A stretch of DNA of 51,095 nucleotides from Synechococcus sp. AG-683-C23 (GTDB lineage: Bacteria; Cyanobacteriota; Cyanobacteriia; PCC-6307; Cyanobiaceae): assembly GCA_003208835.1 (NCBI GenBank), contig QCVD01000015.1, positions 1-51,095 on the forward strand, read 5' to 3'. Below are positions 6,456 through 21,649 of the stretch, piece after piece. The stretch's first letter is position 1. Every line of letters begins with the position of its first letter. The notes under the pieces are model-generated. The model saw only the letters and a program-made list of their open reading frames with translations, did not search any database and was not told where the DNA came from. The position numbers and the translations under genes were made by a program.

Positions 6456-7853
6456 TTATTGGTGAGGCGTGGACATCTTGATGGGGTCTACCAATTGATC
6501 GAAATCAGAGGTGCTGATGTGCCCCAGGTCCAAGGCTGCTTCTTTCAATGTCAATCCCTGCTCGTGGGCATGTTGTGCGATGGCGCTGGCTTTTTCGTAC
6601 CCGATACGAGGCGTTAGAGCCGTCACGAGCATGAGTGATCGGTCAACAAACGCTTGGATTTGCTGCCGGTTGGGTTCAAGCCCGTCCACCAAATTCTGGC
6701 GAAAGCTGTTGATTGCATCGCTGAGCAGGCGAATGGATTGGAGGATGTTGAATCCAATCAGTGGTTTGAACACATTCATCTGCAAGTGACCCCCAGCTCC
6801 AGCGGCAGCAACCGCCGCATCCATTCCGATGACTTGAGTGCACACCATGGCCATGGCCTCGCATTGTGTGGGGTTGATTTTTCCCGGCATGATCGAACTT
6901 CCTGGTTCGTTAGCAGGCAATTGCAATTCCCCGAGTCCTGCCCGTGGTCCGCACCCCAGCAGTCGAATGTCATTGGAGATGCGCAACATTGCTACCGCCA
7001 ATCCACGCAGTTGCCCCATGGCATGAACCAGGGAGTCGTGGCCTGCCATGACGGCAAACAGATTGTCCGCGGGTCGAAATGCTAAACCGGTGGCGCTACA
7101 AAGCTCCTTCGCCACATCAGTGCTGAAGCCTTTGGGAGCATTCAATCCTGTCCCTACTGCTGTCCCCCCCAAAGGCAGTGATGCCAATGGGGTGAGACTG
7201 TCTTCAATCCACGAACGGCAGAGCTTGAGCTGATCGCGCCAGGCTGAAACTTCATCTCCAAGGCGCAGGGGCACCGCATCTTGAAGGTGCGTTCGGCCAA
7301 TCTTGATGATCGGAAACCAAGCCTCGGCCTTGATATCCAAGGCTTCAATCAGAGCTTGAACAGCTGGGAGAAGAGAACTGGTGAGCTGCTGCGTCGCTGC
7401 TATGTGGATCGCTGCAGGAAAAACATCGTTGGTGGATTGTGAACGATTCACATGATCATTGGGATGAACCGGCTGATGGCTACCAAGGGGTGTCCCTTCG
7501 CGAAGGGACACCAGGTTGCTGATCACCTCGTTCACGTTCATGTTCGTTTGGGTGCCACTCCCTGTTTGCCAGACCTTGAGGGGAAATTGATCGTCATGTT
7601 GTCCCCTAGCAATGGCATTTGCCGCGGAGATGATCTTGTCGGCGAGCTCTTGGTTGAGCACCCCATGACGAGCATTCACGGCTGCACAGCCCTGTTTAAT
7701 CAATGCCAACGCATGGATCAGTTCAACGGGAATGCGCTCATTACTGATCGCAAAATTGCGGATTGCTCGTTCCGTCTGAGCACCCCAAAGGGCTTCGTCA
7801 CTGACCTCTACAGGACCAAGGCTGTCATGCTCGGTTCGGAACGATCGGGTCAT
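6456..7853 (-). CDS. fumC: Fumarate hydratase, class II
   Basis: A 465-residue member of the fumarase/aspartase superfamily that interconverts fumarate and malate in the TCA pathway. The diagnostic loop GSSIMPGKINPTQCEA carries the catalytic serine. Also visible are TGSGTQTNMNVNEV, the Asn/His substrate region (VHPNDHVNRSQSTND) and GRTHLQDA. Length and N-terminus (RTEHDSLGPVEV) fit class II fumarase and not the iron-sulfur class I enzymes. It is transcribed away from the DUF1997 gene, with about 80 bases between them. Confidence 0.95.
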   Translation of the reverse strand: MTRSFRTEHDSLGPVEVSDEALWGAQTERAIRNFAISNERIPVELIHALALIKQGCAAVNARHGVLNQELADKIISAANAIARGQHDDQFPLKVWQTGSGTQTNMNVNEVISNLVSLREGTPLGSHQPVHPNDHVNRSQSTNDVFPAAIHIAATQQLTSSLLPAVQALIEALDIKAEAWFPIIKIGRTHLQDAVPLRLGDEVSAWRDQLKLCRSWIEDSLTPLASLPLGGTAVGTGLNAPKGFSTDVAKELCSATGLAFRPADNLFAVMAGHDSLVHAMGQLRGLAVAMLRISNDIRLLGCGPRAGLGELQLPANEPGSSIMPGKINPTQCEAMAMVCTQVIGMDAAVAAAGAGGHLQMNVFKPLIGFNILQSIRLLSDAINSFRQNLVDGLEPNRQQIQAFVDRSLMLVTALTPRIGYEKASAIAQHAHEQGLTLKEAALDLGHISTSDFDQLVDPIKMSTPHQ

Positions 7854-7890
7854 TAGGGCTTCCCGGGCTGTTCATGGAGATCCTGATCAT

Positions 7891-7918
7891 CCATGATTAC
7901 GCCATGGAGTGATCATGG
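7891..7918. promoter_or_regulatory. Inverted repeat between fumC and the DUF1997 gene
   Basis: CCATGAT (7891-7897) and ATCATGG (7912-7918) form 7-base arms around a 14-base centre, in the 80-base divergent promoter region of fumC and the DUF1997 gene. It is a candidate operator; no known binding site is recognised. Confidence 0.2.
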
Positions 7919-7933
7919 TCTTCAATCGCTTCA

Positions 7934-8473
7934 TTGATTCCCTTCTGCTTCTGGCTGTTGAAGGTTCACCGCTGTCATCGCCTTGATCTTGATCTTCCCG
8001 GAGGAACGGTGTGTCAACTCGAGGCGTATCTCTCTGACCCAGCTCGCCCCCTCAAAGCACTCCTCAATCGCAAGAAAGTTAACCAGTTAGCCGGTGGTCG
8101 TTTTCATTACGTTTCAAGGCCATATTCCTTGCTGATGTTTCGACTTCAACCGGAAGTGGTGTTTCGAGCAGGTTGGACTGAATCTACGTTGAAGATCGAA
8201 TTTGAGGATTGCACTATTCGAGGACTAGGTAAACTGGATTCATTGGTGTTGTTTTGCTGCAGTGCCAGGATTTCTGCCAAGGATAATCATTTAGTTGCGG
8301 AGGCTGATATGAGTCTTGAGTTGAAATCAGAATCTTCAATGATCTTGATGCCAAGTAGCTTCTCGATAGCCATGGGAGAGAAAGCCTTAGGATTGATATC
8401 CGAACGTCTCGAAAGACGCTGTCGTGCAGGTTTAGTGAGGAGTGCAGAAAAATGGGTGCTTGACACTCGATGA
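7934..8473 (+). CDS. DUF1997 family protein
   Basis: A protein of up to 179 residues similar to the cyanobacterial and plastid DUF1997 family: a mostly beta domain with an early 'YLSDPARPLKALL' segment and an 'EFEDCTIRGLG' segment. There is no signal peptide or catalytic motif. The first ten or so residues (MIPFCFWLLK) look unlike family starts, so a later alternative initiation codon is plausible. It precedes the capsule export genes but shows no sign of belonging to them. Function unknown. Confidence 0.75.
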   Translation: MIPFCFWLLKVHRCHRLDLDLPGGTVCQLEAYLSDPARPLKALLNRKKVNQLAGGRFHYVSRPYSLLMFRLQPEVVFRAGWTESTLKIEFEDCTIRGLGKLDSLVLFCCSARISAKDNHLVAEADMSLELKSESSMILMPSSFSIAMGEKALGLISERLERRCRAGLVRSAEKWVLDTR

Positions 8474-8559
8474 AATTAATCGGGAATTGAAATCCATATC
8501 AACTATAAATCATGCTCAAGTGCTGATACAATAGAAAAATGTTCCTTTAAAACGCTTTC

Positions 8560-9369
8560 ATGTTGACTTCGTCAAGGTCAGCTGAGCCGAGATTGACATT
8601 CGATCGATTGATCTTACGTTGCGATAAATCTGATAGCGATGTTGTAAATTTATTTCCTTGGGATTGGTCAATATGTATGGGGGAAAGGTTGTCCATTATG
8701 TCATCAAATTCTTTTTTGAAATATCAGTTGATGGCTATCCTTTCTGGATTTGTACATCCTATCTCTGGAGATTTTGAGGCTTTTGGTTCATTGAGCTGGC
8801 CTCTTGGCGGAGAGGGTGGGTTGGATAGTAAGTTGACGATCGGTCAAGGATTTGATTTTGTATCCAGTATTTACAGCGATTGTCTTGAAGCTTCATTGAT
8901 CTCGGTTGATGACTTTTTTGATATGCTTCATACACGTTCTATTGATTCAAGTACGCGCCTCAAGGATTTGGTCAAAGAGCAAAAAGATTTTTTTTATATG
9001 ATGTTGTCAATTCTATTTTCATTTGATATTTATCTTGTTCCTAGTGATCGGTCTAAGTATTTGATGGCAAGAGAGGCAAGGCCGTTGCGCAATCTTTTGA
9101 ATAAACAGCTATCTAACTCTAACTCTTCATCTAAATCTATGGTCACGATTTCAATCAATAATCGTTTTAAGCGTGAATTTTGCAATCGGGGAATGGTGCT
9201 TGGGCCCCGTGGAGAGATACTCTTCCATGGCGACTTAGAGGAAGCAATTGCCTACGAGAGCGAAACTGTTAAAATTGCATCAGAAACCGAATCTGATGAG
9301 ATTCAGTTCGATATAGCTGGCCATTTAACAAATTCAGACTCAAGCTCTGATCAAAATGACGTTTTTTGA
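8560..9369 (+). CDS. KpsT/Wzt-like ABC subunit with degenerate ATPase motifs
   Basis: A 269-residue protein that aligns by eye along its length with polysaccharide-export ATPases (KpsT/Wzt). Family landmarks remain: SGFVHPISGDFEAFGSLSWP (residues 62-81), then LTIGQGFDFVSSIY, and at the end FCNRGMVLGPRGEI followed by DLEEAIAYE. The catalytic motifs are gone. The P-loop GxNGAGKST is SSNSFLKYQ (48-56), keeping only Asn and Lys. The signature SSGMRARL is replaced around 137-144 (LVKEQKDF). Walker B YLIDE reads YLVPSD (158-163). The switch His is lost (TISIN, about 196-200). The frame is intact and overlaps the permease gene by 14 bases, so this is a maintained gene rather than debris. Infer a pseudo-ATPase, perhaps pairing with an active KpsT encoded elsewhere. 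The region is AT-rich relative to flanking genes. Confidence 0.8.
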   Translation: MLTSSRSAEPRLTFDRLILRCDKSDSDVVNLFPWDWSICMGERLSIMSSNSFLKYQLMAILSGFVHPISGDFEAFGSLSWPLGGEGGLDSKLTIGQGFDFVSSIYSDCLEASLISVDDFFDMLHTRSIDSSTRLKDLVKEQKDFFYMMLSILFSFDIYLVPSDRSKYLMAREARPLRNLLNKQLSNSNSSSKSMVTISINNRFKREFCNRGMVLGPRGEILFHGDLEEAIAYESETVKIASETESDEIQFDIAGHLTNSDSSSDQNDVF

Positions 9370-10219
9370 CTTGCGATTCATTCTCATGATGTTTATTAAT
9401 CGAATCATTAAAGGCCTGCGCCGCCAATGGATGATTATCGTTGCTATTTCTGATTACGATAGAAATCGGCAGGCCGCTGGCAGTTCATTGGGGAGCTGGG
9501 AAAGTTTGATAAACCCAATGCAGATGATGCTTTTTTTCATTGGTGTGCGGGTGACTTTAAGCTTATTAAGGGGTGCCAATAAATTTGCAGCAGGCGGATC
9601 GACTGATATATATTTCAATATAGTTGCATTTATGCTGACAGGTTTTTGTATCGTATTTCTTTTTAGAAATGTCGCAATAAAATCTCTTTCCGGCCTTAAG
9701 CTTAAAGCTCCTCTTTATTATTCAAGGATTAAGCCTTTGGATATCTTATTGGCATTATCCTTGAATGACATGCGAGCTTTGGCAACCCTTTCGCTTGCCA
9801 TATTGGGCGTTGTGTATTATTTTACTTGGAGCTTCCAGTTAGATAGTCCAGGCTTGGCAATTAGCGTGTATTTGTTGACGGTGATGATGGCTATTGGATT
9901 TGGCCTGTCGGTTGTTTTTCTGGGCCGGTTAAATAAATGGTTGGTCAAAATTATAAAAAGACTTATGCAAAGAGTCATTATATTTACCTCAGGTATTTTC
10001 TTTGCTACTTTCGAGATTCCTGCACATCTTAGGCCCTTCATTACCTGGAATCCAATCCTTCATGGAGTAGAGCTGTTTCGCTATTCTATCAACAATGAAT
10101 ATCCGATACCTGATATTTCATTGTCATATCTCATTCTCTGTTCTATACTAATGTTGAGTTTTTCACTGATCCTATACAGGACTAACGAGTCTCTTCTTTT
10201 GGTGGCTAATGATGATTGA
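9356..10219 (+). CDS. KpsM-like ABC-2 polysaccharide export permease
   Basis: A 287-residue integral membrane protein with about six predicted membrane segments in the ABC-2/KpsM arrangement. The C-terminal family block is clear: FEIPAHLRPFITWNPILHGV followed by ELFRYSI. It would form the inner-membrane channel through which a lipid-linked capsular or O-antigen-like polysaccharide is exported. It starts inside the end of the KpsT-like gene and is followed by the KpsE-like gene, so the three probably form one export operon. Base composition is AT-rich, as in its neighbours. Confidence 0.88.
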   Translation: MTFFDLRFILMMFINRIIKGLRRQWMIIVAISDYDRNRQAAGSSLGSWESLINPMQMMLFFIGVRVTLSLLRGANKFAAGGSTDIYFNIVAFMLTGFCIVFLFRNVAIKSLSGLKLKAPLYYSRIKPLDILLALSLNDMRALATLSLAILGVVYYFTWSFQLDSPGLAISVYLLTVMMAIGFGLSVVFLGRLNKWLVKIIKRLMQRVIIFTSGIFFATFEIPAHLRPFITWNPILHGVELFRYSINNEYPIPDISLSYLILCSILMLSFSLILYRTNESLLLVANDD

Positions 10220-10272
10220 TTTTCATTGATCGCTATGCATTTTCTTTGAGATGCTTCAACTCCTAATTTGTT

Positions 10273-11487
10273 ATGGCTGATCGCGAAATTATTCCCCAAA
10301 AAAGTTCTTCGATGCCATTCCAAAATTTTGATGGCAAAGCTGATTCTGTATCTGATTTGAATAGTCCTGGTATACTTCCCCCTGTCTGGACAGAAAGACT
10401 TGCTGTTTTAAAAAAACCAAGGGTTTTAATCTCATTATTTTTAGCTTCATCCGCATTCTACTGCTTCGTTATTGGACGCGATCGTTATACCTCTGTTTCT
10501 GAATTTGTTATCCAGCAAGCGGTTCCTCTAAATACGTCATCATCATCGGTATTGGCTGGTGCGGCTGCAGCCCCTCAGGTCTTGACTTCATTGGTGGATG
10601 GTCAATACTTACAAGTTTATCTGGCTTCATCAGAAGTCAAAAATCGTTTGTTTCCAAAACCAATATCCTTAGAAAAAAAATATCCCAAGTCAATCCCTGA
10701 TCTCTTAACAGGAATAAATAAAGCAAGTAGCGCTCCAGTGCAACTTGCTTTTTATAGGAACCTTCTTCAAGTTTCACCACAACCCTTGAGTGGTTCAGTC
10801 ATCGTAAAGACTGTTGGGTTTGATCCCGATCAAGCGTTCGATTTCAATAAATCTCTCCTTCTTCAATCAAGGCGGTTTGTTAATGAAGTTAATCAGTCAA
10901 TCAATGCCGATCAAAATCTCTTTGCTCAAAAAGAAGTTGCTTTGGCTGAGAAGAATTTGAAAAAAGCTTTTCAAGAATTAGAAGTTTTTCAAGAAAAATT
11001 TGGTCAGTTGAGTGTTCAGTCTGAGCAAGCAGCTACCAGTTCTTTTATATCTGGCCTTGAATCAAGGGTTGTGAATCTTAAGGTTGAAGAGGCATCTTTG
11101 AGGCGGCAGTATCGAGACCCCAATGCACCTGAAGTCTCTTTTATTGCAGACCAAGTTAGAGAGTTAGAAAAACAAATTCGAAAGGAAAGACAAAAATCTG
11201 TTAGTGAAACTGGTCGTGATCTTAATAGTCTTGCAATGCGAGAATCTTCTTTGCGTGCGAATGTAGAATTTTCAACCGAGTCTTTGCAATCGGCCCGCTT
11301 AGCAGCAGATAATAGCCGTCGTGAAAGTACTCGGCAATTAAAATTCTTGGTCATGCTGAGTCAACCACAGCGACCAGTTTCTCCTGATCAAAATTGGCGC
11401 TGGCAAGCCTTTCTTGGTTCGATTGGAATCATTGTGGTCGCATGGGGTGTCGGTGGCTTCATAGCGGCAGCCATGAAAAAAGCCTAG
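10273..11487 (+). CDS. KpsE-like capsule export / polysaccharide co-polymerase protein
   Basis: A 404-residue protein with the two-helix layout of KpsE and related co-polymerases: a cytoplasmic N-terminus, a membrane helix at about residues 52-70, a long periplasmic region with coiled coil (about 200-350, Glu/Lys/Gln-rich), and a second helix near the C-terminus (about 380-400). The proline-rich block QPQRPVSPDQNWRW just before the second helix is typical. In known systems this protein links the ABC exporter to the outer-membrane channel. It follows the KpsM-like gene by about 50 bases. No outer-membrane KpsD/Wza gene lies in the window. Confidence 0.85.
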   Translation: MADREIIPQKSSSMPFQNFDGKADSVSDLNSPGILPPVWTERLAVLKKPRVLISLFLASSAFYCFVIGRDRYTSVSEFVIQQAVPLNTSSSSVLAGAAAAPQVLTSLVDGQYLQVYLASSEVKNRLFPKPISLEKKYPKSIPDLLTGINKASSAPVQLAFYRNLLQVSPQPLSGSVIVKTVGFDPDQAFDFNKSLLLQSRRFVNEVNQSINADQNLFAQKEVALAEKNLKKAFQELEVFQEKFGQLSVQSEQAATSSFISGLESRVVNLKVEEASLRRQYRDPNAPEVSFIADQVRELEKQIRKERQKSVSETGRDLNSLAMRESSLRANVEFSTESLQSARLAADNSRRESTRQLKFLVMLSQPQRPVSPDQNWRWQAFLGSIGIIVVAWGVGGFIAAAMKKA

Positions 11488-11511
11488 TACTTTTCTTTGT
11501 CTAGACTTAAT

Positions 11512-14500
11512 TTAAGGTCGAATGCATCCAATTCCTTTTCCTGCAAAGTAGTAACCACAGGCTCTAGCAAAATGAAGCTTTCTACGGGCAATCAGTTGAT
11601 CTTCTGCGATCTCTGGATATAGTTCCTGTGCTTTTTTGTCATTAATGCAGCCTGTTTCAATCATTGACCTTACCTCTTTCTTTGTCGAGGGGAGATGCTC
11701 CCCAAGGTGTTGTTGATAAAAATGCCACTCTATATTTGCTCTTATGAGTGTTTCACGAAAATTATATTCATGTGAATGTCTTACGATGGCTGTAGGTGCG
11801 TAAGCTTTTTTAAATCCATGGCGCAATATGGCCATGGCCCAAAGTTGATCTTCTCCATAAATAACCTCTGGCATTTGTACTTGTTCCCAGGCTGTTTTTC
11901 GTAAGCATGAGTTGTTATCAGAATAAAAACGTTCATGATTACTGATTGGAGCATCAGGCTTTTTACGACTTTTGTCTAATTCAATTGGTTTTCGATGACT
12001 TCGGAAAATCCACCGGTTGAAATGCTGGTCTAAGTCGTACGACGTTAATGGGTTATGGCCTTCATGGGCGATGTGGCATCCAAAAACACCAGCCACCTCT
12101 CGATCATCTTGGAGTGGTGCGATGAGGTTCATTAACCACATTTTGTTTGCCGGCATGGCATCTTGTGTGAGGAATGCGATGAATTCTCCACGAGCTAGGC
12201 TCACACCAAGATTGCGAGTTCGTCCATGGCCGAATTCGCTCTTTGCAATTCGATGAATTCGGATTCGATCGTCTTCTGGTAGATCATCGAGGCAGCCATC
12301 TGTTGAGGAACTATCAATAATTAGAATTTCTAATTCAGCATCGAGATCTTGTTGAAGACAAGTCTCTACAACGCGGCTTAGTAGATCACCTCCGTTGTAA
12401 ACAGGGATCACGATAGTGACGATTAGATTGGAATTAAGTAAGTTTTGATGGTGATTTGGTGCTGACGCAGCTTCAAATTGTTTACGGATAAAGTTCTCAA
12501 CGATGCTGTTGGATTGATCCCAGGTTAAATTTTTTGTTGCAAATAGTCCTGCTGTTGTCACTTGTTCGCGTAGGGAATCATTATTGAGGAGTTGGCTCAA
12601 TGCTGCTGCCAATGCTCCTGGGTTGGGTTGGGCAAGCACAGCTGTGTTTGGTTTATAAGAGATTCGTGTATGGATAGCATCAATATCAACAACTGGTAAA
12701 CCACAAGCCATCATTTCATTGGGAACGAGAGAGTAATTGGTACCTGATAAAACAAGACCAACTGTGCATATTTGATACAGCTTCGATAATGACTCAGCAT
12801 TCAGAATTCCCGCATGTGTAACTTTTACTGGGATCCCTAGGTCAGGTAAGTCGTCCTCTCCAAAGGTAACGATCTCAAAACTATCTCCTAAGTCAAAGAG
12901 TGAGCGTAACGCCAACAGACCAAGCTGATATAAGCGACGTGGTGTGCTGCGGCGAACATAAAAAGCGATGGTATTTTCAGACCTTTTATTAATTTTGGAT
13001 TGATAATAAGTATTAGAATCAACAGCCAATGGAAATGAAATAGCAGGATTTCCCTGCTCGATCATCATGTTTTTGAGCCAAGGGCTTGCGCAAATACAAG
13101 CAAATTCATGGTTAGACGCGTAGGTTTGTTCCGTTAAGATCGTTGATGTCCCTTTTGCGAAGAAAAAGGGTTCATAGTCCTGAACAAAATAAAAGCGCTT
13201 GCTAAACTTTCTCATGCCAAGTACTGGATAGGCACTCATTCGATCGGTAGCAATAACAACATCGCCGCTGACTCTTTCTAGATCTTCATTGGTGTTGCCA
13301 AGCATATATACCTGATCAGTTTTTAGCTTGATAAAATATTGATCTATAATTCTTTTATGAAGAGAACTTAGTCTGCTTGGTTTCTCCCCTTTTATTTCAG
13401 AGTGAACCCATATTATGCAATCATGACCACATCTTTCCAGAAAATTGATCATTCTGAAGATTGTCATATGGCCTCCTAGGCCAGGGGTGAAGTTTGGAAT
13501 CACCCAATGAATTTGAAGTTTATTTGAGGAGGCATTTGGTCGGTTCTTCCAGTTCCTGTCCAGGGACTTCTCTTTAAATTGGATAACTTTCTCAAATCCA
13601 TTGATTTGTAATTTATTTCGTCCTTCAATGATTTGCTTGTCAGATTGATATTGCTTGGAACCTTTATACCCACAGTAGCTTGTGATAATTCCTTTGTGTG
13701 AATAGTCTGTGCAGCACAGACCAATTAATCGTTCAATGCTGTGGGCCAATGTTCCATCAATTTGTCCTACTTCGTTGCCAAAATCTTCGAATGTGAGGTC
13801 CCAATCTAGAATTGGTTTTAAGACAGTTGGTTTGCACCAGAACATATTGCCGGTCGGGAATATAAATTCACTGTTGCGGTCTATCTGGTGAAGGCCTAGC
13901 TTGTTAAGTAGTGGCTTCGCTTTGTCGTAGTTCCCGTCTTCATGCCCCCAGCAAGAATCGTGCTTAATTCCCAGGCTAAGTGCATAGTTTTCGACTGGAT
14001 AAATAATAGCCACATCATCTTTGCTTAGCTCCTGCATGTTTGTGTAGAACACATCGATGTTGCCGATTAGATTGTCTAGGCAGTGCTCAAACCACCCGCT
14101 TAAAGCATTGCTATGAGGACTTTTCTTGGAATGGAGCTTGAGGACAAAGTCATATTGAGTAATCTCTTCTTTGAAACCAACAATAAATGGTGCAACATCT
14201 CTGCCAATGTTTGGAAAGGATTTGATATGCACCTTATTTGAATTATCTAGGCCATCAAAAATCTCTTTAAGTCTAATGACTGAGTCTTGGTTTGTGGATA
14301 TATAGATGTCAATATTTGTGGGAATCCTTCCAATGTAGTCTGCGATTGTTGGGGCAAGTTCTGGATAAAATATGTGCAAAAATATCCCTATTTTTTTCTC
14401 TTTGATGCTTGAATCTAGCTTGTGCACGTCAATGGCAGAAGCCTTCTTGATATGTGCAGTCTTTCTCATGAAATGGATATCATCCATCGAATGTCGACCT

Positions 14501-14997
14501 TCTCGAATGCCAAATTTAAAGAAGTGAACCATTGGATTGATTTCACTTTCTTTGATGTCTGGATATTTGCTGAAGTAATTATTGGTTTCGAATAAATTGC
14601 TGGGATCGATCCCCAATTTCCACCCTGACGTGCAGTAATGCTGAAGACAACTCCCTAGGTTGTTAATCTTTTCTGATTCTTCTCTTGTTAGCTGATTCTT
14701 GTAAAAGTCGATGTCAAATGCATATGCATAATGCGCTAATTCTTGTATGTCGCGACGCTCAGTCTTCCTGACTTGATTTTCGTCAATTCCTTGAATATAA
14801 GCTTGGAGTTCAGGAGAAATTTTTTGACGTCGATTGTCTGGTATTTGTGAGTCTTGATTCGATGTGCGTTTTAGTCGTTGACGAATAAACCCCGGGATGA
14901 TCTTTTGTTTACTCAAACGGCGTGCCGTCGAGCGTAGAAGTTGGCGCCCTGAGGCGATTGATGGCTTGAATTGATTTTTTTTGGATGCCTTGGCCAT
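11512..14997 (-). CDS. Multidomain RgpF-GT4-GT2 glycosyltransferase
   Basis: A 1161-residue protein with three sugar-polymer domains in order. After a basic N-terminus and a short repeat region (about 90-175, with 'EGR' motifs seen in cyanobacterial glycosyltransferases) comes an RgpF-type rhamnan-synthesis domain (about 202-470, KIGIFLHIFYPELA and PNIGRDVAPFIVGF). A GT4-like domain follows (about 495-845, WVIPNFTPGLGGHMTIFRMI, later LVPNEMMACGLPVVDIDA). A GT2 domain ends the protein (about 858-1110, VIPVYNGGDLLSRV and LIIDSSSTDG). It is the last gene of the minus-strand rhamnose cluster and is AT-rich. It likely adds several sugars to a rhamnose-containing surface polysaccharide; linkage specificity cannot be read from sequence. 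Confidence 0.88.
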   Translation of the reverse strand: MAKASKKNQFKPSIASGRQLLRSTARRLSKQKIIPGFIRQRLKRTSNQDSQIPDNRRQKISPELQAYIQGIDENQVRKTERRDIQELAHYAYAFDIDFYKNQLTREESEKINNLGSCLQHYCTSGWKLGIDPSNLFETNNYFSKYPDIKESEINPMVHFFKFGIREGRHSMDDIHFMRKTAHIKKASAIDVHKLDSSIKEKKIGIFLHIFYPELAPTIADYIGRIPTNIDIYISTNQDSVIRLKEIFDGLDNSNKVHIKSFPNIGRDVAPFIVGFKEEITQYDFVLKLHSKKSPHSNALSGWFEHCLDNLIGNIDVFYTNMQELSKDDVAIIYPVENYALSLGIKHDSCWGHEDGNYDKAKPLLNKLGLHQIDRNSEFIFPTGNMFWCKPTVLKPILDWDLTFEDFGNEVGQIDGTLAHSIERLIGLCCTDYSHKGIITSYCGYKGSKQYQSDKQIIEGRNKLQINGFEKVIQFKEKSLDRNWKNRPNASSNKLQIHWVIPNFTPGLGGHMTIFRMINFLERCGHDCIIWVHSEIKGEKPSRLSSLHKRIIDQYFIKLKTDQVYMLGNTNEDLERVSGDVVIATDRMSAYPVLGMRKFSKRFYFVQDYEPFFFAKGTSTILTEQTYASNHEFACICASPWLKNMMIEQGNPAISFPLAVDSNTYYQSKINKRSENTIAFYVRRSTPRRLYQLGLLALRSLFDLGDSFEIVTFGEDDLPDLGIPVKVTHAGILNAESLSKLYQICTVGLVLSGTNYSLVPNEMMACGLPVVDIDAIHTRISYKPNTAVLAQPNPGALAAALSQLLNNDSLREQVTTAGLFATKNLTWDQSNSIVENFIRKQFEAASAPNHHQNLLNSNLIVTIVIPVYNGGDLLSRVVETCLQQDLDAELEILIIDSSSTDGCLDDLPEDDRIRIHRIAKSEFGHGRTRNLGVSLARGEFIAFLTQDAMPANKMWLMNLIAPLQDDREVAGVFGCHIAHEGHNPLTSYDLDQHFNRWIFRSHRKPIELDKSRKKPDAPISNHERFYSDNNSCLRKTAWEQVQMPEVIYGEDQLWAMAILRHGFKKAYAPTAIVRHSHEYNFRETLIRANIEWHFYQQHLGEHLPSTKKEVRSMIETGCINDKKAQELYPEIAEDQLIARRKLHFARACGYYFAGKGIGCIRP

Positions 14998-15012: not shown

Positions 15013-16140
15013 TCAATTCTTCTTCGTTTGATTGATGCCAAGTCGTCCACCGTCATAATCAGCATTTTCACGGACTATTTGGCACCAATCGTCATGCGAT
15101 AAGTACCAGGCGACTGTTTGAGCCAAGCCTTCCTCGACGTTATGGCGTGGTTCCCATCCCAGTTCGGTGCTGATTCTTGAAGGGTTAATGGCATAGCGAC
15201 GATCGTGTCCAGGACGATCGGTGACGCGTTGAATCAGGTTGATGTGTGGCGCCGCATCTGGCCGTTCCTGATCCAGTTGATAACAGATGGCATTCACCAC
15301 CTCTTGATTGGTTTTTTCACCATGGCCACCAACGCAATAGCTACGTCCAGGTGTTCCTAGACAGGCTGCTAATAGCAATGCGTCCACATGATCTTCAACA
15401 TAGAGCCAGTCACGGATGTTTAATCCATCTCCATAAAGGGGAATGGACTCTCTCGCGGCTGCTTTAAGCGTGACCACAGGAATTAACTTTTCTGGGAATT
15501 GCCACGGTCCATAATTATTTGAGCAGTTTGTTAGAACGACTGGGAGTCCGAAGGTGTGGTGCCACGCTTGCACTAAATGGTCGCTGGCTGCTTTGCTGGC
15601 GGAATAGGGACTGCGAGGGTCGTAAGGCGTTGTCTCTGAGAAGCGACCTTCAGAACCTAGGGAGCCAAAGACTTCATCTGTGCTGATGTGATGCAATCTA
15701 AATTGCTCGCGCCGCTGTGGTGAAAGCTGTTCAAAATGTGATCGCACGGCTTGAAGAAGATTGTATGTGCCGGTCACATTGCTTTCAATAAAAACACCAG
15801 GTCCAGAAATGGAGCGGTCCACATGGCTTTCTGCCGCTAAGTGCATGACAAGGTCTGGATCAGCGTCCTTGACGGCTTGTTGAACGGCTTTCTCGTCGCA
15901 GAGATTAATCGCTTGTAATTGATGACGATTTTGATGCTTAACCCCAAGCTCTTGGATCACCTCGTTGATTGATGTGAGGTCGCTGGCATACCCCATCTTG
16001 TCGAGGTTGAAAACAATGGCGTTGCTTTCTCTCAAGAGCCGCCGAATGACTGCACCGCCGATGAAGCCTGCACCGCCGGTGACCAAGATGCGTTGGCGCT
16101 TTTCGAGCAGTTCTGCGGTGGTCGGCATGGACTTGGCCAT
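15013..16140 (-). CDS. rfbB: dTDP-glucose 4,6-dehydratase
   Basis: A 375-residue extended short-chain dehydrogenase; second step of dTDP-L-rhamnose synthesis. The NAD-binding motif GGAGFIGGAV starts near residue 21. The catalytic acid pair lies in ISTDEVFGSLG, and the Tyr-Lys pair in SPYSASKAASDHL. RDWLYVEDHVDA and GHDRRYA are family-typical. The protein starts with a short extra N-terminus before the Rossmann fold. It lies between rfbD and the 1161-residue glycosyltransferase in the same direction; together with rfbA, rfbC and rfbD it completes the pathway. Confidence 0.95.
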   Translation of the reverse strand: MAKSMPTTAELLEKRQRILVTGGAGFIGGAVIRRLLRESNAIVFNLDKMGYASDLTSINEVIQELGVKHQNRHQLQAINLCDEKAVQQAVKDADPDLVMHLAAESHVDRSISGPGVFIESNVTGTYNLLQAVRSHFEQLSPQRREQFRLHHISTDEVFGSLGSEGRFSETTPYDPRSPYSASKAASDHLVQAWHHTFGLPVVLTNCSNNYGPWQFPEKLIPVVTLKAAARESIPLYGDGLNIRDWLYVEDHVDALLLAACLGTPGRSYCVGGHGEKTNQEVVNAICYQLDQERPDAAPHINLIQRVTDRPGHDRRYAINPSRISTELGWEPRHNVEEGLAQTVAWYLSHDDWCQIVRENADYDGGRLGINQTKKN

Positions 16141-16192
16141 TGAATCAGGATTGAATCAGCGGTTAAAAAAGATTGACGGGTCTCAATCTGCT

Positions 16193-17080
16193 TCAGTCAG
16201 CTTGGATCCGAAGCAGAAGCTGTTTTAAGGCTTCTTGCCAATGTTCTCCATCAAGCTGCAATGCCGATCGTGTGGTGGTGCAATCCAGGAGTGAATAGTT
16301 CGGACGCGTGGCCGGCGTCGGATAGTCTGCGGTCGTGATCGGATTCACCTTGGCCGGTGCGTCCACCAAGCCAAGGGAGTGGCCGAGTTCCCCGATGGCC
16401 ACAGCCACGTCGTACCAGCTTCCGGCTCCTGCATCACTCCAATGCAGAATCGGTGGCAGGGTTGTTTGCGACCCCTGAGTGATCGTTTTCCAACATGCAG
16501 TGGCCAAATTCAAGGTGCTGCTAGGGCATCCCACTTGATCAGCAACCACACCCAGTTGGTCACGTTCGCGGTGAAGACGCAGCATCGTGAGGGCAAAATT
16601 GTGACCGACTGGCCCCATGACCCAGCTCGTACGAAGGATGATTCCTTTAGGGTTCTTGTATCCAAAGATCTTTTGGATGGCTAGTTCTCCGGCGGCCTTG
16701 CTTCCGCCGTACACACCAAGAGGTGTGGTGGGTTGATCGACTCGGTAAGGAAAACCCTGTAGACCATTAAAGACAAAATCTGTGCTCACTTGTAGAAGTC
16801 GCCCCCCCTGGCGATCGAGCTCTTGCGCAAAGGCTTCCGGCGCTCCGGCATTGATGGCGTTGGCCAACTCTGGTTCGGACTCCGCTTGATCGACAGCTGT
16901 GTAAGCGCCGGCGTTGAGAACCCAATCAGGTTGGTACTTCTGAACAGCGATGCGGCAGGCTTCGCTATCGGAGAGATCAAGCTCCTGACGGGTTGTGGCG
17001 ATGAGTTCAACGGTGTCAGGCGTTGCATCCAGTAACGCCTGGCCCAGCTGCCCTCCGGCTCCAGTGAGTAAAACCTTCAT
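16193..17080 (-). CDS. rfbD: dTDP-4-dehydrorhamnose reductase
   Basis: A 295-residue short-chain reductase that makes dTDP-L-rhamnose from dTDP-4-dehydro-L-rhamnose. Visible are the N-terminal GAGGQLGQAL nucleotide-binding loop, NAGAYTAVDQAE, the STDFVFNG strand and the catalytic Tyr-Lys pair in YGGSKAAGE. Its start overlaps the rfbC stop by four bases (ATGA), indicating translational coupling. Confidence 0.95.
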   Translation of the reverse strand: MKVLLTGAGGQLGQALLDATPDTVELIATTRQELDLSDSEACRIAVQKYQPDWVLNAGAYTAVDQAESEPELANAINAGAPEAFAQELDRQGGRLLQVSTDFVFNGLQGFPYRVDQPTTPLGVYGGSKAAGELAIQKIFGYKNPKGIILRTSWVMGPVGHNFALTMLRLHRERDQLGVVADQVGCPSSTLNLATACWKTITQGSQTTLPPILHWSDAGAGSWYDVAVAIGELGHSLGLVDAPAKVNPITTADYPTPATRPNYSLLDCTTTRSALQLDGEHWQEALKQLLLRIQAD

Positions 17081-17667
17081 GGGAAAAGATCTCCTGATGC
17101 CTTGGCCGAAAGGAGGTCAGAGGCTTCAGCGTCTTTGTCAGACAGGCTGATGCTATTTCCTTCCAATTCGGCTTGTGGCCAATCAATGGCCAAGCTTGGG
17201 TCGTCCCATCGAATGGCACGTTCACGCGCTTTATTCCAAAAACCACGGGCTTTGTACTGCACTTCTGCGACGGCACTCAAGGTGAGGAAACCATGGGCAA
17301 ATCCCTCTGGGACCCATAACTGTGACCTGTTTTCAGCGCTTAAGACGGCACCAACCCATTGACCAAACGTGGGCGACGTTTGTCGAATATCGATCGCTAC
17401 ATCAAAAATAGATCCCACGCTGGACCGCACAAGTTTGGCTTGAGGTTCTGGTGCTAATTGATAGTGCAAACCTCTTAAAACCCCTTGAATCGATCGTGAG
17501 TGGTTGTCTTGGGAGAATTCCACTGTTTGTCCCACGGCGTCGTTGAAGCGGGTTTGGTTCCAGCTTTCAAAAAACCAGCCACGGTCGTCGCCAAAGGCCC
17601 GGGGTGTGATGAGAAGCGGGCCATCAATGGTGGTTCCTCGCACTGTTTGTAGGGCTTCAACATTCAT
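17077..17667 (-). CDS. rfbC: dTDP-4-dehydrorhamnose 3,5-epimerase
   Basis: A 196-residue cupin-fold epimerase. The catalytic His lies in GVLRGLHYQ, and other typical segments are [14 protein letters not shown] and the Tyr/Lys-containing VQYKARGFW. Length matches RmlC. It overlaps rfbA and rfbD by four bases each, so the three are tightly coupled. The product feeds directly into RfbD. Confidence 0.95.
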
Positions 17668-18596
17668 GCGCTCACCTCCAGGCTGGTTTGCAGAGCAGCA
17701 TGGTCGCTTACATTTTCTTCGAGCATTTGTAGGAGATAAGTTCCGTAGCCGCTTTTTTGTAGCGGTTGTGCGAGCCGATTGAGCTGCTCGTTGTCAATCC
17801 ACCCCTGTCTCCAGGCCACTTCTTCAGGACAGCCCACTTTTAACCCTTGTCGATGTTCAAGGGTGCGGATGTAGCTGGCCGCATCATTGAGCGAGTCGCA
17901 TGTTCCTGTGTCGAGCCAGGCCATGCCTCGTCCCATAAGTTCAACCCGAAGTTGTCCTTCTTCCAGGTACATCGCGTTGAGATCAGTGATCTCGAGCTCT
18001 CCGCGGGGGGAGGGCTCGACTTGCCGGGCACGCTCCACCACTGTTTCGTCGTAAAAGTAGAGCCCTGTAACGGCATAACGACTTTTTGGATATTTGGGCT
18101 TTTCCTCCAGGCTTAAAACCTTCCCCTGGGCATCAAATTCAGCCACTCCATAACGCTCGGGATCGCGAACGGGGTAGGCAAACACCGTGGCTCCCTTCTG
18201 TTGTTCAGTGCTGTTCATCAGCTGGGGGATGAGGTCGTGCCCATGGAAAAGGTTGTCTCCTAAGACAAGAGCGGCGGGTGCGCCATCGAGGAAGCCGGCT
18301 CCGATCAGAAAGGCCTGAGCGAGCCCGTCTGGACTGGCTTGAGTGGCGTATTGGATTTTCATGCCCCATGCAGAGCCATCACCAAGCAATCGCTCGAACG
18401 CATCGCGATCATGGGGTGTCGTGATAATCAGAACATCCCTGATTCCCGCCAGCATCAGGGTGCTGAGGGGGTAATAAATCATTGGTTTGTCGTAGACGGG
18501 CAGGAGTTGTTTGCTCACTGCTTGGGTGATGGGATGGAGACGCGTGCCGCTGCCACCGGCCAGGATGATTCCCTTGCGTTTTGGTGCCGTTCCCAT
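17664..18596 (-). CDS. rfbA: Glucose-1-phosphate thymidylyltransferase
   Basis: A 310-residue nucleotidyltransferase that starts dTDP-L-rhamnose synthesis from glucose-1-phosphate and dTTP. The signature [20 protein letters not shown] is near the N-terminus, followed by [21 protein letters not shown] and [10 protein letters not shown]. It is the first of the four rml/rfb genes and follows the 984-residue glycosyltransferase on the same strand with about 100 bases between them. Confidence 0.95.
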
Positions 18597-18694: not shown

Positions 18695-21649
18695 TCAGGT
18701 CTTGGGTCTCTGAAGTTGTGATCTGATTTGAGCGGCCAAGATGGGATTCCGCTCAGAGATCACATGCGCCCAAGGACCAATGTCTTGATGTGTAGGATTG
18801 TCGCGTAAAAGTGAAACTTTCAAAAAAGGAAAGTTTTTTGTTTCAATCAACTCTCGCCAGGCTGTATGCAAAATATTTCCGTTGGCATGTTTTGTGTAAA
18901 GGCTCTCGGTTTTAAATCCGGATTTTTGCAGGAGGACTGACAAGCCAACCTCATATTTCTTGATCAGATCACGTTTTTTAGGCCATGACTCCAGTTGATT
19001 CCAAAAGTTTTTAAAGGCTGTATTTTGAATGACTGGTTTTTGAAAAGCGAGAAAAGCAGATTGAAGATGTGGTGAGTACATCTGATCGTCGGTGAGTCCG
19101 ATGATGTCAGAATCACTTGATTTTATCTGTTCAAATAAATCATCGAGGGGAGAGATTGGTCCCCAAAAGCTGTCGTTTGTGAGAATAAGTTGATTGATAT
19201 GTTTTAGATCCTTTTCAAGCCAATGTAGGGCCGCCATCCAGCTGCCAAAGTCATACCCTTCGTTGCGGCGAATCAAAATGGCGCGGCAGCATCGTTTGAG
19301 CTTTCCCATGGTTTTCCAATGCCATCGAAGGCCTGGCGAAGCTGAGACCAAGACAACATCTCCGAATTGATCGTAGCTCTCCAAAAGGTTGAAAAGATCT
19401 GGACGTAAGCGGTTGGATGGATCAAAATGAGCCACAATAATTAAGGGCCTGTTGTTATTCGCTTGCCAGCCCTGTTGTTTCCATTGGCTGATCCGCTGAG
19501 GCTTGACGGGACCCAATGAATGTGGTGCAGGATCTTTTGGTTGGAAGCGGTTGCTATGGGGATGGAGGCGCTGGCTAAAGAGTGGATCGCCTGTTTCGAA
19601 GAGTCCTGCGTGTTTATGCCTCAAATAACCCGACTCGCGTTGATGTCGGGCCAGTGCTTCTCCTGATTGGTCTTTGCCGCGACTCACCGATTCATGGTGA
19701 ATGATGTCAACAAAGGGTGTGACAACAATAGAGCCTTCTAATTGACGTAATCGCAGGCATAGATCTACATCGTTGAAGACAACGGCGAGTTGTTCATCGA
19801 ATCCACCAACTTGATCAAAATCAGCGGTTCGCAGCATCAAACATGCAGCAGTGGCTGCAATCCACTCTTCCTGTACTCCCAAGGGAGTAAAAAGTTCGAT
19901 AACACTTGCTTCGGTTAGGTGTTTGCCGGGTTCCAAGACACAGCGTCGTTCTCCCTTGATGAGCACAACCCCATGATGTTGGATGCTGTTGCTGGGGTAA
20001 CGCAAGCGTGCACCTACGGCCATTGTGTGGCGAATGGCGAATGGATCGAGGAGCTTTTGAAGAACATCATCAGAGCGGACTTCGATGTCATTGTTGAGAA
20101 GTAAGAGGTGCGTTCCTTGGCAGTAAGGGCGTGCAAAATTATGAATTTGCGCGTAATTAAAGTCACAATCTATATGTACTACCGTTACATCATTTTTAAC
20201 CCGCTGCTCATCGAGCCAAGCCAAGGTTTCTGAATTTGTACTTCCGTTATCAATCAAGATCAGTTCATAGGGAACGTCTCCAGCACAACGTTGAATTGAT
20301 TCCACGCAAACTTTGGTGAGTGATGCACTATCTCGAAAGGGAATCAGAATCGAAACAAGTGTGTTCTTTGGGGGGGTCCAATGCACTTGATGGCATCCAG
20401 GCCAGCTTGGATGAGCGCTAATCCCCCCTCCGGTTGTTAGAAAATAGGCCCCGCGCTCTCGACAGATACTGAGGGCTTCCTGGGATTGCGATGCGCTGAA
20501 AATCCGTCGATCTCTGGGGGACGCCACATCTGGAATGGCGGGATTCGTTGTGATATTTCGACTGAGTAGATCTTGTATTAAGTGCTCACACTTCTGGCTT
20601 TGCGTACTGACTTGCAGGCTGAGATCAAGAACCAGATTGTGAACACACAACCGTTGCTTAGGGAGTTCTAATTGGCGCAATCGGCTCAGTCGAATGGTCA
20701 CCAGACCACCGATGCATCCTCGGGTGAGCAAACGCCAAGGCACGACCGCTACACGGTTTTGGCGGTTGCCAGGGCGCTGTGCTGGCTCGGAGCTCCACTG
20801 CAACGTTTCATCAGAGCTGAACAACGCAGCAGTGGGTGAAGCTTCGGCGGCTCTACTCAGTAGTTGTGGCGCTTGCGGTGCCAAGCGGTCGTCGCTGTGG
20901 CAAAAACTCACGAGAGCCTCGTTGGCTGAAGGCAGTGCCGACCACACCGAATCGAGATCCCCCAGGAGGCCGTGGATGATCTGGTTCCAGCCAAGGGTGT
21001 TCTCGCGAACAGTGTTCCCGCCAAGGGGCGACGCTGCGTTCTCGGCTGGATGAGGCTCCGTTTGTAAAACCACCAAAATCAGTGGCAATGGATTGTGTGG
21101 TGGGGTGACGGTTTGAAGGACGGCCTGAACGGTCTCATCCGGTTCCGGTTGGTAGCGGTCGAGGTCTTTCCCGAGTGCACGTCCCTGGCGGAACCGTTTC
21201 CAGCCGAACGTGGCCAAGTGTTCCAGTGCGGAAGAGTGCTGGCGGTGAAGCTCTTTTTTGGCGCCTGGACGGAGACCGTCGAGATAGGCCTCCAAGTGAA
21301 TGGGGGGTAGATCCGTATAGAGCGGTGCTTCCCCACGGATGATCTGGGTGAGTCGCCCAGAGCTCACAAGAGCTTTCGCTGTGACTAGCTCTGGATGGGC
21401 TCGCCCCAGTGCCTCTTCATCGATTCCGCTATCTCGTGGTGTCCATCTCTTGGGAGTTACCAGAAGAGGAATGGGGATGAGACGAGGATCGAGGAATGCC
21501 ACTGGCAAGCCTGGATTTCGCTCCGCCAACTTGGGCTGCAAGCTTTCCAAGCCAAAGCCCAGCTCAACAACCTGTCGAAGAGCTTGGGTGAGCGACCGAT
21601 CGGAACGACGTTGGCTGGGCACCATGGGCCTGGGACTTCCCCTAGTCAA
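18695..21649 (-). CDS. Two-module GT2/RgpF glycosyltransferase
   Basis: A 984-residue protein. Residues about 185-360 look like an eroded GT2-type module (LVSFCHSDDRLAPQAPQLL and LFSSDE remain). Residues about 430-650 form a full GT2 domain: VSILIPFRDSASLTKVC, ILIDNGSTNSETLAWLD, LLLLNNDIEV (acidic metal-binding motif) and VFNDVDLCLRLR. Residues about 735-960 form an RgpF-type rhamnan synthesis domain (PLIIVAHFDPSNRLRPDLFN, NEGYDFGSWMAAL, LILTNDSFWGP). It appears to be the first gene of the minus-strand cluster, followed by rfbACDB. It likely transfers rhamnose and other sugars onto a surface polysaccharide; specificity is not readable. Confidence 0.88.
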   Translation of the reverse strand: MTRGSPRPMVPSQRRSDRSLTQALRQVVELGFGLESLQPKLAERNPGLPVAFLDPRLIPIPLLVTPKRWTPRDSGIDEEALGRAHPELVTAKALVSSGRLTQIIRGEAPLYTDLPPIHLEAYLDGLRPGAKKELHRQHSSALEHLATFGWKRFRQGRALGKDLDRYQPEPDETVQAVLQTVTPPHNPLPLILVVLQTEPHPAENAASPLGGNTVRENTLGWNQIIHGLLGDLDSVWSALPSANEALVSFCHSDDRLAPQAPQLLSRAAEASPTAALFSSDETLQWSSEPAQRPGNRQNRVAVVPWRLLTRGCIGGLVTIRLSRLRQLELPKQRLCVHNLVLDLSLQVSTQSQKCEHLIQDLLSRNITTNPAIPDVASPRDRRIFSASQSQEALSICRERGAYFLTTGGGISAHPSWPGCHQVHWTPPKNTLVSILIPFRDSASLTKVCVESIQRCAGDVPYELILIDNGSTNSETLAWLDEQRVKNDVTVVHIDCDFNYAQIHNFARPYCQGTHLLLLNNDIEVRSDDVLQKLLDPFAIRHTMAVGARLRYPSNSIQHHGVVLIKGERRCVLEPGKHLTEASVIELFTPLGVQEEWIAATAACLMLRTADFDQVGGFDEQLAVVFNDVDLCLRLRQLEGSIVVTPFVDIIHHESVSRGKDQSGEALARHQRESGYLRHKHAGLFETGDPLFSQRLHPHSNRFQPKDPAPHSLGPVKPQRISQWKQQGWQANNNRPLIIVAHFDPSNRLRPDLFNLLESYDQFGDVVLVSASPGLRWHWKTMGKLKRCCRAILIRRNEGYDFGSWMAALHWLEKDLKHINQLILTNDSFWGPISPLDDLFEQIKSSDSDIIGLTDDQMYSPHLQSAFLAFQKPVIQNTAFKNFWNQLESWPKKRDLIKKYEVGLSVLLQKSGFKTESLYTKHANGNILHTAWRELIETKNFPFLKVSLLRDNPTHQDIGPWAHVISERNPILAAQIRSQLQRPKT

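Follow-up and report, generated by a model that had tools for sequence, protein, structure and literature searches.

The window, a stretch of 51,095 nt from contig QCVD01000015.1 of Synechococcus sp. AG-683-C23, contains an intact open reading frame (8560-9369, forward strand) encoding a protein of 269 aa, designated KpsT* here. An earlier note, made from the sequence alone, had described the product as KpsT-like with an intact frame but all ATPase motifs lost, and had placed KpsM-like and KpsE-like genes downstream of it; the two neighbours were verified by Pfam and NCBIfam/TIGR01010 matches, and the frame is open. The features of the locus are as follows.

6456..7853, reverse strand: fumarase-like gene, by eye presumably fumC; a common flank in the synteny
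7934..8473, forward strand: DUF1997 gene, a common upstream neighbour
8560..9369, forward strand: kpsT*, KpsT fold without ATPase motifs; acidic C-terminal tail at residues 245-269, probably disordered
8701..8727, forward strand: former Walker A, SSNSFLKYQ, residues 48-56 (canonical GxNGAGKST)
8788..8814, forward strand: conserved SWP-G segment, residues 77-85
8968..8982, forward strand: former ABC signature, LVKEQ, residues 137-141 (canonical YSSGM)
9031..9051, forward strand: former Walker B, YLVPSDR, residues 158-164 (canonical YLIDE)
9145..9159, forward strand: former switch-His loop, TISIN, residues 196-200 (canonical MVDH(N/D))
9356..10219, forward strand: kpsM-like ABC-2 permease (Pfam ABC2_membrane), with the start probably at ~9386 by orthology
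10273..11487, forward strand: kpsE-like polysaccharide co-polymerase (BexC/CtrB/KpsE; TIGR01010, E 8.7e-44)
11512..14997, reverse strand: RgpF/GT1/GT2 multi-domain glycosyltransferase, adjoining the exporter genes
15013..18596, reverse strand: four sugar-nucleotide genes with Pfam domains that fit dTDP-rhamnose synthesis, which we take by eye to be rmlB, D, C and A

The permease scored 65.9 bits against the NCBIfam KpsM model (cut-off 300) and matched KpsM of Schlegelella thermodepolymerans (StKpsM; its KpsT is StKpsT) by profile at E 2.2e-19, and the KpsE-like protein scored 150.1 bits against TIGR01010 (cut-off 437.5), so that both lie under the cut-offs. The overlap of kpsT* and kpsM that had been claimed holds only if the ATG at 9356 is used; the orthologous KpsM start lies about 10 residues later, which leaves a gap of about 16 nt. 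Because RgpF-type glycosyltransferases and dTDP-rhamnose-like genes stand beside the exporter, its cargo may contain rhamnose. A second RgpF/GT2 glycosyltransferase of 984 aa is encoded at 18695-21649 of the window, downstream of the dTDP-rhamnose-type genes. An Rfam scan of 7800-11600 returned no match.

Fold and former ATPase motifs of KpsT*

The product of 8560-9369 had no match in Pfam at E values up to 1, and none of four KpsT* proteins matched PF00005 (ABC_tran). Residues 45-242 were aligned by phmmer with S. thermodepolymerans KpsT (8tsh; E 4.9e-10), which allowed the motif sites to be assigned. The AlphaFold (AF2) model of KpsT* had a pLDDT of 86.3 and a pTM of 0.81, with low confidence confined to residues 1-6 and the tail (245-269), and its best PDB match in Foldseek was 8tsl_A, the KpsT of the KpsMT-KpsE complex (TMt 0.79). 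A deep relative, KpsT* of G220, was modelled with similar confidence (pLDDT 87.7, pTM 0.80). The NBD fold of KpsT* is thus most like that of KpsT by both methods, in agreement with the likeness first proposed.

Motifs were placed by aligning KpsT* with 14 canonical KpsT proteins from the same bacterial family (alignment A3). This confirmed the four replacements reported by eye (SSNSFLKYQ, LVKEQ, YLVPSD and TISIN) as well as the persistence of the non-catalytic landmarks, the SWP segment and the C-terminal DLEEAIAYE segment. A P-loop at another place in the protein, the possibility that the earlier note had set against its own reading, was ruled out by the same alignments (phmmer with 8tsh; 14 canonical KpsT), which show none elsewhere. 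When ten catalytic positions were scored, all 14 canonical proteins carried 10 of 10, all 37 scored motif-less proteins carried 0-2 of 10, and none was intermediate. The Walker A pattern GxxGxGK[ST] was found in none of the 37; the first and third glycines are lost in every one and the middle glycine in 33, while the Walker A lysine position holds Lys in two (G000 and G008) and Arg in 13. The signature glycine is retained in 3 of 37 (the window has LVKEQ), the Walker B Asp, the catalytic Glu and the switch His in none, and the catalytic Glu position is occupied by K or R in 30. In most of them the A-loop has also lost its aromatic residue (F in 4/37, Y in 0/37). Two of the Walker A glycines survive in G264, a further lineage member beyond the 37, but the rest does not. 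The SWP segment, in contrast to these sites, has its Trp in 37/37 motif-less and 14/14 canonical proteins and its Pro in 34/37 and 14/14, respectively; from its position in the NBD, this segment would dock onto the permease.

Two charge differences accompany the motif loss. A tail with a net charge of -5 or lower was present in 29/37 motif-less proteins and 0/14 canonical ones, and the former ATP pocket had a median net charge of +2 in the lineage versus -2 to 0 in canonical proteins. The group charges are in the direction expected if tail and pocket interact, but within the lineage the two charges were not significantly correlated (rho -0.23, p 0.17); docking of the acidic tail in the former ATP pocket is speculation.

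Distribution, ancestry and selection

A search of 98 genomes, including the window's own, matched the protein in 28, of which 25 belong to the window's genus; a weak match in G027 was accepted as KpsT* on the basis of synteny and alignment. The P-loop is absent from all 25 proteins of the genus. A KpsM profile was also run against 400 genomes of the family and matched 58, including 24 in the window's genus. Loci were examined in 27 of the other 34, the remainder being seven of genus g5, and in G102 and G249, which were added through the KpsT profile. These 29 other-genus genomes comprised 14 with a canonical KpsT (Walker A pattern), 12 with a motif-less protein in the ORF set, two (G232 and G264) judged motif-less by direct translation, and one (G211) in which KpsM stands at a contig end with no KpsT visible. 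The motifs are therefore absent in 39/39 lineage proteins examined (25 from the genus and 14 from other genera), 37 of which were scored at the ten positions. Loss shared among orthologues, which the earlier note had proposed to look for, was accordingly found throughout, and its word "eroded" is misleading for a state common to the whole lineage. Six-frame KpsT matches with in-frame stops were seen in G433:C5 (1 TAA) and G392:C3 (1 TGA and 1 TAA).

Within the genus, the proteins were divided into groups A (15 genomes, including the window), A' (G021 and G024), C (G027) and B (7 genomes). At the former P-loop, all 15 members of group A have Ser at the middle-glycine position followed by Leu-x-Tyr, and all seven of group B have Met and Glu; such group-specific letters look like replacement of the motif and not drift. 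In groups A, A' and C the setting is a DEAD-helicase gene, usually the fumarase and DUF1997 genes, and then KpsT*, KpsM and KpsE, although one or another of these genes is absent from the map at a few loci. The group B gene for KpsT* is separated from KpsM by 16-19 kb (on the same stretch or contig in G007, G032, G016 and G025; loci L138, L139, L140/L141 and L142); G007 and G032, both complete, carry the two genes together in spite of a separation of about 16.5 kb. Genes of a family marked by an HxGxHKTAS motif, which to the eye resemble sulfotransferases, adjoin KpsT* in group B and lie near it in g60 and g75 (L143:1929-3005, L191:2633-3727, L191:5765-6829, L193:4613-5695 and L200:5038-6084); one member searched in Pfam and NCBIfam, and a PDB profile search, gave no match.

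The canonical KpsT gene follows KpsM in 14/14 loci, whereas KpsT* precedes it in the 11 motif-less cases of the other genera where both are on the same contig. Trees of KpsM (50 rows), whose columns contain no KpsT motif, and of KpsT (51 rows) both separate the canonical and motif-less groups by one branch with support of 100/100, and a quick KpsE tree (47 rows) concurs (SH-aLRT 92); the tree programme gave a long-branch warning, and the motif-less label of KpsM rows G211, G013 and G017 was a default. With canonical motifs in the KpsT/Wzt relatives seen outside the group, these trees, which are unrooted, are most simply explained by a single loss in an ancestor, and the data are consistent with the catalytic motifs having been lost once, long ago. 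Since genus g9 includes a canonical protein (G160) as well as a motif-less one (G269), some transfer between genera is likely. A 5341-base contig of another genus (L187, G366) carries a KpsT*-KpsM-KpsE set very near that of G027; it is a small contig of a fragmented genome, and either transfer or mis-binning could account for it.

Selection was estimated by the method of Nei and Gojobori (NG86) for KpsT* pairs with at least 50% identity (n=74). Among the closest 14 of these pairs, 13 of which were computed, dN/dS was 0.05-0.20, and the six of them with dS below 1 gave 0.11-0.20. The closest pairs listed for the partner proteins gave 0.02-0.09 (KpsM) and 0.05-0.11 (KpsE); KpsT* is constrained, though less than KpsM and KpsE. 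The check for purifying selection that had been suggested thus came out in favour of a maintained pseudo-ATPase. There is good evidence both that KpsT* is a pseudo-ATPase and that it is maintained, from the common loss in 39/39 members, from purifying selection and from co-occurrence with KpsM and KpsC/KpsS.

Partner proteins, pathway and search for a motor

Among the 19 genomes of the genus that are at least 90% complete, KpsT* and KpsM are both present in 15 and both absent from four (G001, G020, G031 and G033); a weak KpsM match in G033 (E 8.8e-6) is the permease adjoining a canonical Wzt. In incomplete genomes, KpsM was found without KpsT* in G013 and G017 and KpsT* without KpsM in G002, G011 and G030. 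PF05159 (KpsC/KpsS) was present in 35 of 39 genomes tested, and the four that lack it are the four KpsT*-less genomes of the genus; within the genus it was found in 16/16 KpsT* genomes tested (G000 included) and in 0/4 without KpsT*. The outer-membrane component OPX (PF02563) was detected in 42/51 genomes, with two copies in G000. It is present in 21/25 KpsT* genomes of the genus, including all 15 near-complete ones, and the four without it are each less than 90% complete; it also occurs in KpsT*-less G033 and so does not strictly track KpsT*. In G006 the KpsC gene, a KpsS-acyltransferase fusion and OPX share one locus, and in G160, which has a canonical KpsT, the KpsC, KpsS and OPX parts are contiguous with KpsM-KpsT-KpsE. 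The KpsS-like PF05159 protein of these two genomes bears an extra C-terminal acyltransferase domain, PF01553 (L291:8805-10937 and L294:6931-8958). No Walker A pattern was found in the ORFs of the KpsC/S/OPX loci of G006, G000 and G007. Judged against an ABC-dependent (group 2 type) capsule pathway, KpsC/KpsS and OPX are present, and by sequence an ATP-hydrolysing KpsT is missing.

One suggestion in the earlier note was a partnership of KpsT* with a second, normal KpsT from another locus. When three control genomes were searched with a profile built from the 14 canonical KpsT proteins, members of that family scored 404-427 bits. Among the matches listed for KpsT* genomes of the window's genus, none but KpsT* itself scored above about 76 bits. 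In KpsT* genomes of other genera, matches of 135-153 bits were long frames in G100, G188, G141 and G257 (4 of 14), classed as Wzt-like by score and frame length, and the other matches listed did not exceed about 87 bits, KpsT* aside. No normal KpsT partner was therefore found in KpsT* genomes among the matches listed. The next best family, ATPases of 252-256 aa, was listed for part of the KpsT* genomes (for example, not for G006 or G015) and does not look like an obligate partner. The KpsT*-less genomes G033, G001 and G020 have a long P-loop ATPase of Wzt type with open frames of 450-483 aa (L136:8101-10362, L137:8607-10022 and L148:5098-6510), the Wzt_C domain having been tested in G033 only.

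A phyletic comparison was made for one pair of complete genomes, G006 (with KpsT*) and G033 (without this KpsM/KpsT*), using ORFs chosen by P-loop pattern in PF00005 loci. Reciprocal-best partners in G033 were found for 33 of 34 ABC ATPase ORFs of G006, and the exception (L242) has an ABC_membrane domain of its own. No dedicated partner NBD emerged from this one pair, and with 33 of 34 ATPases orthologous in G033, a dedicated partner ATPase for KpsM appears unlikely from the gene content.

The permease was compared with StKpsM, in which R35, R89, R94 and W45 are reported as required for export, with Lys or Ala substitution of R35, R89 and R94 disrupting it (PMC11041684). Lineage KpsM proteins have R at R35 in 19/37 and K in 12/37, R at R89 in 25/37, K at R94 in 34/37 and K or R at R187 in 35/37, and W45 is retained in none of 37. 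Canonical sister KpsM proteins already deviate from StKpsM, with G or A at W45 in 13/13 and R at R89 in 0/13, and the canyon residues were accordingly rejected as a marker of motif loss. Because Lys cannot replace R35 or R94 in the system described in that report, the substrate or its handling by the lineage KpsM may have changed too.

Comparison with known systems and interpretation

KpsT* resembles the KpsT of KpsMT-KpsE (8tsh/8tsl) in its fold, its KpsM and KpsE neighbours, the SWP-G segment and the C-terminal end of the NBD, but differs in lacking all ATPase motifs and in its acidic C-terminal tail. The 14 canonical KpsT proteins of sister genera form its nearest sister group and share the KpsM/KpsE partners and KpsC/KpsS (10/10 genomes tested); unlike KpsT*, they have 10/10 catalytic positions, no acidic tail, and the order M-T-E instead of the T-M-E of the lineage. 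Wzt/TagH ATPases of O-antigen and teichoic acid exporters have a related NBD fold (Foldseek) but carry the ATPase motifs. Degenerate-site heterodimeric ABC exporters of the TAP1/2 and TM287/288 type have lost one of two composite sites and have kept nucleotide binding. As in those exporters, a transporter has kept an NBD whose ATP site is disabled; KpsT* differs in having lost all motifs, and no active partner was found among the matches listed or in the G006/G033 pair. The fold, partners and pathway are thus of known kinds. Among the open-access PMC papers listed by our searches, no title or abstract opening describes a motif-less KpsT, and an ATPase-less KpsT lineage was not found described there.

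The reading we favour, with a probability of roughly 0.57, is of KpsT* as a KpsT that lost its activity long ago and persists as a structural, non-hydrolytic part of a capsule exporter of KpsM-KpsE type. It is based on the retained fold and SWP segment, the lineage-wide loss of motifs, purifying selection, co-occurrence with KpsM and KpsC/KpsS, and the finding of no KpsT-type ATPase. Two KpsT* would cap the KpsM dimer within the KpsE cage, as in KpsMT-KpsE, and would form a cytosolic clamp or docking platform for enzymes of chain synthesis or modification, perhaps through the acidic tail. Passage of the glycan through KpsM would then be independent of ATP hydrolysis at the KpsT position, the driving force coming from polymerisation, which would push the chain, or from the KpsE/OPX conduit, which would capture it and pull. 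The mechanism of export by KpsM-KpsT*-KpsE is our inference. In StKpsT the Walker B change E151Q is reported to abolish secretion (PMC11041684), so that a non-hydrolysing exporter would be without precedent in that Kps system as it is described there. The wider proposal, that an entire lineage, probably of picocyanobacteria, has a complete Kps exporter (KpsC, KpsS, KpsM, KpsE and OPX) working without ATP hydrolysis at its NBDs and has put the tail and basic pocket to a new, non-motor job, is more tentative, and we regard it as somewhat less probable than not.

A motor could be borrowed instead, with one or two housekeeping ABC NBDs driving KpsM in an asymmetric exporter and KpsT* as the inactive half or adaptor. 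Sugar importers offer examples of one ATPase shared among several permeases (MsmX-type), PF00005 matches number 30, 37 and 41 in the three genomes searched, and mean column identity is higher in KpsM (63%) than in KpsT* (43%), all of which such sharing would accommodate. We nevertheless consider it unlikely, given that G033, a genome lacking this KpsM and KpsT*, has orthologues of 33 of the 34 P-loop ABC ORFs found in G006 (one pair, the L242 exception carrying ABC_membrane), that no canonical KpsT was among the matches listed in KpsT* genomes, and that long Wzt-like ATPases were listed in only 4 of 14 other-genus KpsT* genomes. Scarcely different in its prospects is the proposal that KpsM-KpsT*-KpsE has ceased to transport and serves at the membrane as a platform or regulator, organising glycosyl- or sulfotransferases, for instance, or setting chain length. 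The faster evolution of KpsT* than of KpsM (53% versus 86% identity between G000 and G006), the new lineage-specific conserved residues in the former P-loop, the gain of the acidic tail (net charge -5 or lower in 29/37 versus 0/14), the partial alteration of the canyon residues required in StKpsM, and the position of KpsT* beside the HxGxHKTAS family, sulfotransferase-like by eye, in several lineages could all be read in this way. Retention of KpsC/KpsS and mostly of OPX, together with positive charge at several KpsM canyon positions, fits export, and the HxGxHKTAS neighbours matched nothing in Pfam or the PDB.

Binding of ATP or another nucleotide at a non-canonical site, with cycling in the absence of hydrolysis, would be favoured by the net positive former pocket in most lineage members and by Lys (2/37; G000 and G008) or Arg (13/37) at the Walker A lysine position. 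This is improbable for a protein family in which no member of the 37 has the first or third Walker A glycine, the Walker B Asp, the catalytic Glu or the switch His, 33 lack the middle glycine, and the A-loop aromatic remains as F in 4 and as Y in none; even G264, with two Walker A glycines, has not kept the rest. A pseudogene, or recent erosion in a single strain, might finally be suggested by the low sequence identity of the orthologues and the absence of every motif, but the state common to 39/39 members, the open frames, the dN/dS of 0.05-0.20 and the conserved synteny rule this out for practical purposes.

Expression of a kps set has been reported for an oceanic Synechococcus, where kpsE, kpsM and kpsT are among differentially expressed genes (PMC12274634); identity of that kpsT with kpsT* is not implied. 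A phylum-wide survey of 2015 lists PF00005 as one of two Pfam domains for KpsT and also used tblastn (PMC4594306). As 4/4 KpsT* proteins have no ABC_tran match, a PF00005 search for KpsT would miss KpsT*, and counts of cyanobacterial export pathways are affected by its invisibility to such a search. A lineage that has the other Kps parts but not the ATPase motifs raises the question of what role KpsT has beyond hydrolysis, and of whether polymerisation or a trans-envelope conduit can move the chain.
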